NCBI GenBank assembly: GCA_934476515.1
Contig: CAKSNZ010000030.1
Coordinates: 1 to 27,440, forward strand
Direction: 5' to 3'
Origin: an uncultured Ruminococcus sp.
GTDB taxonomy: Bacteria > Bacillota > Clostridia > Oscillospirales > Acutalibacteraceae
Length of the DNA: 27,440 bases
Positions 15,220-27,440 of the stretch are shown piece by piece; position 1 is the stretch's first letter, and every line of letters begins with the position of its first letter. A program made the position numbers and the translations under genes. The notes beneath the pieces are model-generated. The model made no database searches. It was not told where the DNA came from and saw nothing but the letters and a program-made list of their open reading frames with translations.

Positions 15220-16677
15220 TCAATAATCATTTACCCATTCATACTTTGGAGTTGTTTCTTTATAAGTGTAGTGACCACCATTATCATCAACAAAATAATC
15301 TTTTTGTGATTGTGTATCATGGATAATTTCCATTTTGCCTTTTTCAAAGTTATATCTTTGACCTGCATTTTCTCGATTAAAGCCATAATAAAAAAGATAT
15401 AAACAATTATCATAGTATTGCAACCAACTATCAGTAGTTATACATTTCATTAATTCTTTATCCTTACTACTATCATCAATCTTTTTTTCATAAACCTTAT
15501 TTTCATAAACCTTACTAAACGAAGTGTCTAAAACATAGTAAAGCACATTATCTTCTTCATTTATTGTATAGGAAGTTGCACTGTTATCGCTAATAACCAA
15601 ATAATTTGAACCATCCTTATCAATTCTACAAATCTTTCCCTGACCATTCTTTGAACGGTCTATAAAGTAAATATAATTATCAACAATTTTTATATTAGAG
15701 CAAAGTGCATTTCCACCGAAAGCCATATCATTCATATTTTCATTATTATCATATTGATTGCTATATAACTTTTCAATATTACTACCATCTATTTTTGCTC
15801 TATAAATACCTACTCTCTCTTGTGAGAAATCATTAGCAGAATCATAAATCTTATCACTAGAATATTCAAACCCATTGTCAAAGTAATAAATCCAGCCATC
15901 ATAAATTGTATAATTTGTTGCATGTATACTATCACTTAACATTTCAATAGTTTTTCCATCCTTTGAAATTCTACCCATTCTATTAGCTCTTGAATATGAA
16001 TCTTTCAAATAAGTTCTAACTGCTATTGTGTTAAAATACACATAACCGTCTGCGTATTGTAAATTATTTATGTTGTGCAAATTATCATTTTCTTTATAAG
16101 ATAAAGTATCATTATTTGATATTACATCAGTATCTACCCAAATACTACTTTTAAACTTTCCTTTGTCATAAGTCATTTTCAATAAATCGCCTTCAGATAT
16201 ATAATAGATAGTATCTCCATCATATGTACTTCTAGGAGGTATTCCTATATCTTGTATATCTTCTCTTACTCCTACAATGTCAATAGTTGAAATACTACTA
16301 CCATCGCTACCTAACTCAAACGGCTGATAACCAAAGTAAATATTTTTTCCATCTTTATTAATAACTCCACACTCATCGACTGTTTTGTTATTAAAAAATT
16401 TACCATACAAAGTAAACCCACCAAAAGCAAGGGCTACCACTAACACTACTGCTACTACAGAAATAATAATTGGCTTTTTCTTACTTTTCTTCTTAGGTTG
16501 ATTTGGAATATTTGGTTGCTCCAAATTAGACACTTGTTGCTGTGGTAACGGTGTTTGAACTGGTTGTTGAATTGTTTTTTTATTTTCAACAATCTCATTC
16601 ACCTTACAGCCACAACCACTACAAAAGATAGCATTATCGTCCATCTTTGCTCCACAATTTTGACAATATTTTGACAT
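15220..16677 (-). CDS. Zinc-ribbon, single-pass membrane protein with DUF5050-like beta-propeller
   Basis: The 485-residue protein starts with a zinc ribbon (YCQNCGAKMDDNAIFCSGCG, residues 4-23), then a Gln/Pro-rich linker, a Lys-rich stop and one membrane helix (about 69-90, PIIISVVAVVLVVALAFGGFTLYG). The large outside part has repeated units of the kind Y-I-Y-F/Y..., then I-D-K-D-G-S-N (for example IYRAKIDGSNIEKL and ICRIDKDGSNYLVI). These resemble DUF5050 propeller blades. Function unknown; a sensor or surface scaffold is a guess. AAGGGGCG precedes the ATG. Its promoter region carries a palindrome (16703-16724) that matches 19 of 22 positions of the operator at the neighbouring lipoprotein genes, so it probably belongs to the same Xre regulon. 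Confidence 0.8.
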   Translation of the reverse strand: MSKYCQNCGAKMDDNAIFCSGCGCKVNEIVENKKTIQQPVQTPLPQQQVSNLEQPNIPNQPKKKSKKKPIIISVVAVVLVVALAFGGFTLYGKFFNNKTVDECGVINKDGKNIYFGYQPFELGSDGSSISTIDIVGVREDIQDIGIPPRSTYDGDTIYYISEGDLLKMTYDKGKFKSSIWVDTDVISNNDTLSYKENDNLHNINNLQYADGYVYFNTIAVRTYLKDSYSRANRMGRISKDGKTIEMLSDSIHATNYTIYDGWIYYFDNGFEYSSDKIYDSANDFSQERVGIYRAKIDGSNIEKLYSNQYDNNENMNDMAFGGNALCSNIKIVDNYIYFIDRSKNGQGKICRIDKDGSNYLVISDNSATSYTINEEDNVLYYVLDTSFSKVYENKVYEKKIDDSSKDKELMKCITTDSWLQYYDNCLYLFYYGFNRENAGQRYNFEKGKMEIIHDTQSQKDYFVDDNGGHYTYKETTPKYEWVNDY

Positions 16678-25410: not shown

Positions 25411-26262
25411 TTAATAGAACATTGTACCGATACCTTCATCGGAGAACAATTCAATAAGAATAGAATGTTCAATTCTACCGTCAATAATATGCGCTCTTGA
25501 TACACCTTGACGAACTGCCTCAACACAACAATCAATCTTAGGTATCATACCACCACTGATGATGCCTTCTCTCTTTAGCTGACTGACTTCACTTACATTT
25601 ACTACAGAGATAAGTGAATCTTCATCATCCTTATCTTGAAGTAGTCCTCTAATATCAGTCATAAGAATAAGTTTCTTAGCACCAATCTTTGATGCAATAT
25701 GGGCAGCAGCAATATCAGCATTAATGTTATACACATTACCCTTATAGTCACCGGCTACTGTAGCAATAATAGGTACATAGCCATCACTGATAGCATCGTT
25801 AATAACTTCACTGTTAACTTCTGTGATTTCGCCAACATAACCTAGGTCATCACCTGTAACCATCTTTTCAGCCATAAGCATATTACTGTCAAGGCCACAA
25901 AGACCAATAGCCTTACCACCTGCATGGTTAAGGTGCTGAGTTAAGCTTTTGTTTACCTTACCGGCTAGGACTTGCTGAACAATATCCATTGTTTCTTTAT
26001 CGGTAACACGCATACCGTTAATGAATTTACTTTCAATGCCAACTCGTTTTAGCATTGAAGAAATTTCAGGACCACCACCATGTACAAGAACAACATTTAC
26101 ACCAACAAGTTGCATTAGTACAATGTCACTCATAACAGCAGCCTTTAAATCTTCGTTAAGCATTGCATTGCCACCGTATTTTACAACAATTGTTTCACCG
26201 GCATATTTCTGAATATATGGCATTGCTTGTGTAAGCACTTTTGCTGTTAAACTACTATCCAT
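25411..26262 (-). CDS. argB: Acetylglutamate kinase
   Basis: ArgB phosphorylates N-acetylglutamate, the second step of arginine synthesis. The 283-residue protein has the amino acid kinase fold with ETIVVKYGGNAM (18-29), VVLVHGGGPEISSML (57-71), the NAcGlu/ATP region VYNINADIAAAHIASKIGAKKLILMTDIRGLL and GGMIPKIDCCVEAV. The N-terminal helix (MDSSLTAKVLTQAMPYIQKY) is the kind present in arginine-inhibited hexameric forms, so feedback inhibition is possible. The ribosome binding site is weak (GAAAGAAG). Only 17 bases separate it from the upstream RAYT stop, so its promoter must lie in or before that gene. argC and argJ are not in the window. Confidence 0.97.
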   Translation of the reverse strand: MDSSLTAKVLTQAMPYIQKYAGETIVVKYGGNAMLNEDLKAAVMSDIVLMQLVGVNVVLVHGGGPEISSMLKRVGIESKFINGMRVTDKETMDIVQQVLAGKVNKSLTQHLNHAGGKAIGLCGLDSNMLMAEKMVTGDDLGYVGEITEVNSEVINDAISDGYVPIIATVAGDYKGNVYNINADIAAAHIASKIGAKKLILMTDIRGLLQDKDDEDSLISVVNVSEVSQLKREGIISGGMIPKIDCCVEAVRQGVSRAHIIDGRIEHSILIELFSDEGIGTMFY

Positions 26263-26279: not shown

Positions 26280-26831
26280 CTATCTTATTTTTCTAAAACA
26301 ATCATCTTCCCATAATAACGGATTGCTTTTTATATATAGCCACATTTTTGTTAAGTCTTTTTTGCTTCTCACAATGTGGTCGTAAAACGACTTTTGCCAA
26401 ACAGAAAAACCAACTTCTTTAGAAACTGCACCTTTAAATTGCTTAACAACTCTTGTAATACTAGCCTTATTCTCTGTAACATCAAGCATTTTTGAATTGC
26501 TATATTTTTGATTAGATTCAACAGTTAAAAGCATATGTATATGATTAGGCATAATAACAAATGAACTAACAGAAACACCTTTATATATTCTTGGAATATT
26601 TAAAAGTTTTCTTTCAGCTATCCTACCATATTTACTTAATGGTATTCTATAAGGTCGAATAATGTTCTTCCCTATAAACTTACTATAAATATCTTTTGGT
26701 TTCCAAAAATAATTTTTTCTATCCTTTGTGCATATTGTAATAAAATATACACCGGCAGTAGAATAATCATAATTTTTTAACCTTATAGATTTTCGTTTTG
26801 GAAAGGTCTTGTTTGATTTTACAGTTTCCAT
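26280..26831 (-). CDS. REP-associated tyrosine transposase (RAYT, Y1/HUH family)
   Basis: RAYTs are domesticated IS200/IS605-type single-strand endonucleases that act on REP palindromes. The 183-residue protein has the family N-terminus RKSIRLKNYDYSTAGVYFITICTKDR (13-38), the HUH metal motif PNHIHM (95-100; H97 and H99) and the catalytic tyrosine Y150 in WQKSFYDHIVRS. All are intact, so it could be active. No good Shine-Dalgarno precedes the ATG, in keeping with low expression. Directly upstream (26852-27440) is a tandem array of palindromes with GTAG feet, its likely substrate. It lies 17 bases before argB. Confidence 0.92.
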   Translation of the reverse strand: METVKSNKTFPKRKSIRLKNYDYSTAGVYFITICTKDRKNYFWKPKDIYSKFIGKNIIRPYRIPLSKYGRIAERKLLNIPRIYKGVSVSSFVIMPNHIHMLLTVESNQKYSNSKMLDVTENKASITRVVKQFKGAVSKEVGFSVWQKSFYDHIVRSKKDLTKMWLYIKSNPLLWEDDCFRKIR

Positions 26832-26964
26832 TTATGTTTTTGTTTTCTTTTTTCGAGCGAACAATGTTCGCCCCTACATTTTATTTTGAAAGTTTCATAT
26901 TAATAAAAACATCACATATACCCTTAAATTACTTAGTAACTCTGTTAAACCAACAAACTCTATT

Positions 26965-27076
26965 GTAGGGTCCAACATTGTTGGACCGTTGGTTTTAGAT
27001 TTACTAAAAGGTGTTTGCAGATTTTTCTCTACATCATTTTAAAGGTATCTTTCGGGCGAACAATGTTCGCCCCTAC
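26965..27076. mobile_element. REPIN-like pair 1 (B1 to A2)
   Basis: A 112-bp element: GTAG (26965-26968), palindrome B1, a 66-base spacer, palindrome A2, CTAC (27073-27076). Inverted REPs with outward GTAG feet are the REPIN arrangement known for RAYT-linked repeats. Confidence 0.7.
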
Positions 27077-27162
27077 ATTTAATTTTGAAAGTTTCATATT
27101 AATAAAACATCACATATACCCTTAAATTACCTAGTAATTCTACTAAACTAACAAACTCTGTT

Positions 27163-27274
27163 GCAGGGTCCAACATTGTTGGACCGTTGGCTTTAGATTT
27201 ACTAAAAGGTATTTGCAGATTTTTCTCTACATCATTTTAAAGGTATCTTTCGGGCGAACAATGTTCGCCCCTAC
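27163..27274. mobile_element. REPIN-like pair 2 (B2 to A3)
   Basis: A second 112-bp element of the same structure, with GCAG instead of GTAG at the left foot (27163-27166) and CTAC at 27271-27274. Confidence 0.7.
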
Positions 27275-27440
27275 ATTTTATTTTGAAAGTTTCATATTAA
27301 TAAAAACATTACATATACCCTTAAATTACCTAGTAATTCTACTAAACCAACAAACTCTGTTGTAGGGTCCAACATTGTTGGACCGTTGGCTTTAGATTTA
27401 CTAAAAGGTATTTGCAGATTTTTCTCTACATCATTTTAAA

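Follow-up and report, generated by a model that had tools for sequence, protein, structure and literature searches.

A RAYT-like gene and a tandem array of GTAG hairpins in an arginine operon of an uncultured Ruminococcus: a probable REPtron

What could a tandem array of palindromes be doing beside a transposase-like gene at the end of a bacterial contig? The question is raised by the stretch of DNA analysed here in its full length of 27,440 nucleotides (the window; contig CAKSNZ010000030.1 of an uncultured Ruminococcus sp.), which ends with a gene resembling those of REP-associated tyrosine transposases (RAYTs; REP, repetitive extragenic palindrome) and, upstream of that gene, with alternating copies of two hairpin-forming palindromes, A and B. 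Judging from the sequence, we consider it likely, with a rough probability of 0.8, that the feature is a REPtron, in which a RAYT, probably active, is accompanied in cis by putative substrate hairpins. The features concerned are the following.

26280..26831, minus strand: RAYT-like gene (TnpA-REP, an HUH/Y1 single-strand DNA transposase), 183 residues, from profile, structure and alignment matches
26851..27440, unstranded: tandem array of 198-bp units (3.0 copies as far as the window extends), 95% matches, from Tandem Repeats Finder
26855..26877, minus strand: palindrome A, copy 1, GTAG foot, one stem pair broken, from the hairpin pattern scan (as are the next five)
26965..26987, plus strand: palindrome B, copy 1, GTAG foot
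27054..27076, minus strand: palindrome A, copy 2, GTAG foot
27163..27185, plus strand: palindrome B, copy 2, GCAG foot
27252..27274, minus strand: palindrome A, copy 3, GTAG foot
27362..27384, plus strand: palindrome B, copy 3, GTAG foot
26965..27076, unstranded: 112-bp B-A pair with feet outwards, from DNA folding

Does the gene deserve its name? The initial annotation had called it a RAYT, and as a RAYT-like gene it is borne out by two profile matches and a fold match. The 183-residue protein matches the Y1_Tnp profile (E 3e-6) and, scoring 66.1 bits where the curated cut-off is 80, NF047646, the model for REP-associated tyrosine transposases (E 3e-18). All 20 members of alignment A2 match this model with E values no higher than 0.001, and the first of them reaches 68.3 bits. 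Among solved structures, 4er8 (TnpAREP in complex with a REP hairpin) is both the closest in sequence (E 0.0083) and the top PDB fold match (E 1.8e-7) of the predicted model (mean pLDDT 70.3). The HUH motif is H97-I-H99, and the presumed catalytic tyrosine, Y166, was assigned through the alignment with 4er8 beside the Y115 numbering of the E. coli protein, which we take to be the counterpart; H97, H99 and Y166 are unchanged in all 14 aligned proteins. Furthermore, W145, Q146, D151, H152 and R155 align with W94, Q95, E100, H101 and R104 of the E. coli RAYT, residues that contact GTAG according to the portions of PMC6006769 used here.

In the array, which lies upstream of the gene, A (minus strand) and B (plus strand) alternate through three units; the window stops within the array at 27440, so that three copies would be a lower limit. 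The pattern GTAGGGNCNAACAWTGTTNGNCC with up to three mismatches has 12 matches in the window, compared to a mean of 0.01 in 100 shuffles, and these comprise the six array hairpins, the opposite strand of five of them and one hairpin within the RAYT gene. Two stem pairs distinguish A (GGGCGAACATTGTTCGCCC) from B (GGTCCAACATTGTTGGACC), both of which still pair in each version, and the compensating changes noticed in the initial annotation are indeed present in the stems. Its further claims, that both palindromes fit one consensus and that GTAG stands 5' of each hairpin, call for some correction: the consensus fails in the first copy of A (GAGCG...CGCCC, with one broken pair), and the foot is GTAG in five of the six hairpins and GCAG in the middle B, a perfect stem and GTAG occurring together in four of six. 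The repetition of whole 198-bp units, also noticed there, is recovered by Tandem Repeats Finder. Between B and A the feet point outwards, the pair measuring 112 bp, and between A and B they point inwards; when the 112-bp pair is folded with DNA parameters, both hairpins form on either strand, each with an 8-bp stem and a 3-nt loop (z -5.9). No Rfam family was found in the window at gathering scores, no plasmid matched the array, and the exact A hairpin was absent from the viral contigs searched. Elsewhere in the window, a large open frame contains another tandem repeat, with a 15-bp period and 2.8 copies (15473-15514).

Are such hairpins found beyond the array? The nearest of the genomes compared, G001, a single 2.44-Mb contig with 39% of sampled 31-mers in common with the window, contains 64+69 (133) exact matches to the general GTAG-hairpin pattern, six of them in its own array, compared to none in the reversed control; with one mismatch the figures are 65+71 and one. 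The stems fall into classes A, B, B' (GGTCCACC) and C (GGGACATC). Outside the array (loci L011-L015 excluded), at least 49 distinct outward pairs were read from 76 loci, minus-strand hairpins in the second half of the genome being covered near listed plus-strand ones: 31 A-C, 11 A-B and 4 A-B' pairs, and one each of A-A, A with near-B, and C with near-B'. In all but two of these (47 of 49), one end is an A and its partner a B, B', C or near-B, the others being the A-A pair and one pair lacking A, and 48 of 49 are 147-149 bp long (148 bp in 33, 147 in 11, 149 in 4; the last has 136). GTAG foot, hairpin, outward pairing and dispersal, as in REPs and REPINs, are all found in G001, and the dispersal of both stems, A and B, for which the initial annotation had suggested a genome search, is confirmed there. 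The dispersed 112-bp B-A elements that it also had in mind are absent from G001 outside the array: compared with all of this genome, the 112-bp element matches the three array units whole and elsewhere only hairpin ends (40 of 77 candidates scored), and its 66-bp interior matches the three array units only.

The 148-bp pairs of G001 (L001-L030, L062-L112) are nested in mosaic intergenic repeats of up to several hundred bp, in which the flanking modules are shuffled and have in common a junction resembling ACAGNT|GTAG. Among the REP loci examined, a repeat of about 100 bp interrupts palindromes of classes A, B and C at 10 distinct places (L004, L005, L019, L020, L027/L063, L073, L094, L099, L103, L108).

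How might the gene and the hairpins work together? The REPtron reading starts from the gene, the hairpins and their covariation, the array and its place in G001, the dispersed A and B stems, the inner hairpins of relatives and the decayed copy in the window gene (see below). The RAYT would most likely bind single-stranded GTAG hairpins with an 8-bp stem and a 3-nt loop and nick beside them, and could thereby help to maintain and mobilise outward-facing hairpin pairs (REPINs), which would spread. The array may have arisen by local tandem duplication of one A-B unit, via slippage or unequal recombination, and might have been kept because its hairpins are cognate to the RAYT. The ancestral gene probably held cognate hairpins in frame, flanking HUH, like many relatives; in this lineage, the inner copies would have decayed and the upstream array taken over.

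The relatives in question form, together with the window gene, a set of 111 genes (30 genus loci, L032-L061, and the best 80 of 513 relatives; three genes with internal stops). In-frame GTAG hairpins are present in 88 of them (24/30 in the genus, 64/80 among the others), a fraction not to be carried over to RAYTs in general, the 80 relatives having been found via an alignment mostly of inner-hairpin rows. Hairpins of both orientations lie inside 66 genes, and in 62 (19 genus, 43 others) an outward pair encloses HUH; a hairpin precedes HUH in 69 genes and follows it in 79. The total of 158 inner hairpins compares with 0.028 per gene under synonymous-codon shuffling. In a contrast set, the top NF047646 matches of the phylum, scanned over the model-match stretch and 30 bases on each side, an inner hairpin was found in one of 30 loci; these loci mostly have longer frames (about 220-350 residues; two have 168), and from their length only we take them for another class. 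The two inner hairpins of a gene are much alike, with equal length in 65 of 66 pairs and a mean identity of 93%, compared to 32% of equal length and 69% identity for combinations between genes. Across 40 distinct inner 23-mers, changes on both sides are seen at five of the eight stem pairs, the pairing in 97% of cells being a result of selection, since pairing was a criterion in picking the hairpins. As the stems vary, so do the residues that they encode (VGATIGRP, VGASSARP, VGTTIGRP and VGADIIRP at the first site), and in predicted models these segments appear to fall in loops: low-confidence loops 42-46 and 97-99 of L049 coincide with hairpin-encoded residues about 40-47 and 96-103, and those of the window protein (49-59 and 109-121) lie at the corresponding segments. 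In one RAYT remnant (L114, G026:C46:19700-20350), the segment between the hairpins, including HUH, is gone and a single double-foot hairpin is left.

Do the inner stems resemble those dispersed in the same genome? Among the matches listed, they are the same in G091, G083, G013, G036, G057 and G039; in G014, the inner GCGAGC and GCGACC are dispersed as well, and in G100, G012 (one other copy) and G042 inner and dispersed stems are alike, including the G-T pair of GGGCGACC..GGTCGTCC. Agreement is partial in G005 (ACGACC common, the inner ACGGTC rare) and in G026 (same arm, the G-T stem form commoner). In G018, G045 and G068 the dispersed stems are unlike those of the RAYT locus inspected, one locus having been compared in each of G018 and G045, both with several RAYT matches; in G025 copies beyond the inner hairpins are almost absent, and in G073 the inner pair provides the only matches.

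What, then, became of the inner pair in the window gene? At the first inner site there is a decayed hairpin:

26653..26675, minus strand: decayed in-gene REP hairpin (ATAGGGAAGAACATTATTCGACC), encoding IGKNIIRP, from pattern scan and alignment

The intact hairpin of relatives at this site encodes VGANIVRP or VGADIIRP; none is visible at the second site of the window gene. In-frame REPs, as in TnpAY1 subclass 2.4, are lacking in L032 and represented by this decayed copy only in the window gene. When the comparison is restricted to genes flanked by 300 bp or more on each side, external hairpins stand beside 11 of 63 with inner hairpins of both orientations versus 32 of 41 without (Fisher 8e-10, descriptive, as are our other Fisher values, the RAYT genes being kin, with L054 and L180 apparently one locus); the remaining 9 of the 41 lack an external hairpin along with the full inner pair. 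Three or more hairpins on one side were found in 12 of 111 genes, all without a full inner pair, the hairpins lying upstream in 10 and downstream in 2 (some matches weak), and alternating two-stem arrays resembling that of the window also lie upstream in L149 and L188. In the tree, the window RAYT joins L032 and then L043, with one inner and one outer hairpin, and L213, with one outer hairpin (97/92), within a 20-row clade (90/84; inner branching poorly supported) whose other 16 rows carry inner pairs. The simplest reading is that the inner pair was lost and the outer array gained, in that putative order.

We tentatively suggest, as a joint proposal to which we would give somewhat less than an even chance, that in this RAYT clade the transposase gene requires its own cognate REP pair in cis, usually as an in-frame REPIN at two loop-encoding sites flanking HUH; that the two inner hairpins drift together and stay like the dispersed stems of the host; and that, when the inner pair is lost, hairpins come to lie outside the gene, in some cases arrayed in tandem as in the window. 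If so, the transposase gene would serve as a linked reference copy, matching the enzyme to its substrate as the stems change. The relatives bear on how RAYTs and hairpins stay matched despite hairpin drift between species: they can be ordered as a natural series, from the inner pair, through one hairpin inside the gene and one outside, to the outer array, and several members of the series have the same stems dispersed in their own genomes. On such a series, linkage in cis and joint drift can be put to the test.

How much of this is new? The array and RAYT of the window belong to an arrangement already known, and for one subclass of RAYTs the literature already describes in-frame REPs. The portions of PMC3116915 at hand describe ordered tandem REPIN clusters with flanks, one beside each of the three RAYTs of Pseudomonas fluorescens SBW25, so that the opinion in the initial annotation that tandem arrays are unusual has to be given up; the window resembles this REPtron in its tandem REP pairs with flanks beside a RAYT and differs in stems, in host and in an array interior that the dispersed pairs of G001 lack. 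GTAG REPs and their clusters are likewise treated in the text seen of PMC3733652. The E. coli REPtron, as far as described in the portions of PMC6006769 used, is alike in having two REP subfamilies in inverted pairs (three of them) beside one RAYT, whereas the E. coli REPs are bulged (PMC8266576, likewise in part) and the window hairpins have perfect 8-bp stems with 3-nt loops. Closest in geometry is REP-Sm of S. maltophilia, for which the same portions of PMC8266576 report cleavage: it is likewise a 23-nt REP with a perfect 8-bp stem and a 3-nt loop behind GTAG, but its loop is GCT, compared to the central letters ATT in A and B. TnpAY1 subclass 2.4 (RAYT group 4), in the excerpts of PMC6006769, has in-frame REPs, generally between HuH and Y, and double-foot hairpins like the relatives of the window RAYT; unlike that subclass, the window RAYT lacks an intact inner REP, and in contrast to insertions between HuH and Y, 69 of our 111 genes carry a hairpin before HUH. 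In the portions of the related literature on RAYTs and REPs consulted, we did not find the two-sided bracket, the likeness of inner copies within a gene or the association of inner loss with outer hairpins. The inner hairpins of the relatives are more telling than the window array, and the window lineage may have moved its hairpins outside the gene.

Several findings weigh against the REPtron reading or parts of it. The NF047646 score does not reach the cut-off; this threshold is an NCBI naming rule and not a biological feature, and the predicted fold, in matching TnpAREP, speaks for the assignment. A clade support of 90/84 with poorly supported inner branching does not fix the ancestral state. 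The interior of the array is not dispersed in G001, so the array is not a visible source of the dispersed elements, and the pairs of G001 sit in larger mosaic repeats, so something besides the RAYT may spread them. In the array, 2 of 46 hairpin columns vary compared to 22 of 152 spacer columns, and the hairpins are not significantly more conserved than the spacers (p 0.07); a stronger constraint on hairpins was accordingly dropped as a claim. RAYTs and hairpins do tend to occur together, which speaks for the reading: of the 100 genus genomes surveyed, 44 contain a RAYT match, the same number contain one or more hairpin matches, and at least 10 hairpins are present in 21 of the 44 with a RAYT match versus 3 of the 56 without (Fisher 8e-7). 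Against it, 13 of the 44 have no match to the hairpin pattern, and 13 of the 56 have at least one hairpin, seven of them at least four, all in counts that include hairpins within RAYT genes, follow one stem geometry and come in many cases from incomplete genomes.

Could the array serve the neighbouring genes instead? The 3' end of the window holds argD, a GNAT gene, argB and the RAYT gene, all on the minus strand, and then the array (arg gene names come from our reading of the sequences):

25411..26262, minus strand: argB, 17 bp downstream of the RAYT gene, named from sequence reading

G001 has one RAYT match, 90% identical to the window RAYT, in the same location and with an open frame, and in the same position an array (L031 6073-6708; 3.2 copies, 199-bp period) that terminates in a decayed A with the foot GTAT and is followed by argJ. 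Given argJ on its far side, the array lies with the RAYT gene inside an arginine operon, between argJ and argB. It could accordingly act as an expression element: transcribed between argJ and RAYT-argB, its chain of RNA hairpins would protect the transcript of the operon or attenuate it, and the RAYT would be a bystander. We regard this as unlikely, although argJ, array, RAYT and argB are consecutive in G001 with the genes on one strand, the array hairpins are stable on both strands (as DNA, the only parameters used), and the portions seen of PMC3733652 mention hypotheses in which REPs act in terminating transcription or in mRNA stability. An expression element would not call for a GTAG foot on the side used by RAYTs, as seen in five of six hairpins, or for the same stems dispersed in G001. 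Moreover, in a search that matched argB in 39 of 40 genomes, 25 of the 30 argB loci inspected lack a RAYT match and have argJ and argB adjacent, at most about 230 bp apart, so the operon manages without; a RAYT separates argJ from argB in G001, G014 and G025, in G035 it stands between the GNAT gene and argB, and argJ is out of view in one locus (L233). In the REPtron reading, too, any effect of the array on the operon would be putative.

Less probable still is a neutral array, left at a fading RAYT locus and amplified through replication slippage. The GCAG foot and the broken A stem would fit, as would the decayed last A of G001 and the marginal difference in conservation between hairpins and spacers, but the RAYT is open, is 90% identical in two genomes and retains its catalytic residues, and four of six window copies combine a perfect stem with GTAG. 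Homogenisation of the array units was considered and rejected, there being only four fixed differences between window and G001 compared to 19 columns varying within each. An assembly artefact, which the initial annotation had named as a possible refutation and which the end of the window within the repeat might suggest, is refuted for this locus by the same array in the same place, with argJ beyond it, in the one contig of G001.

That the window RAYT represents the same arginine-operon insertion as those of G014 and G025 was likewise rejected: the tree does not group them, and separate insertions are equally likely. Arginine-operon RAYTs occur, besides the window and G001, in G025, G014 and G035 (L223, L224 and L213), at two different junctions.
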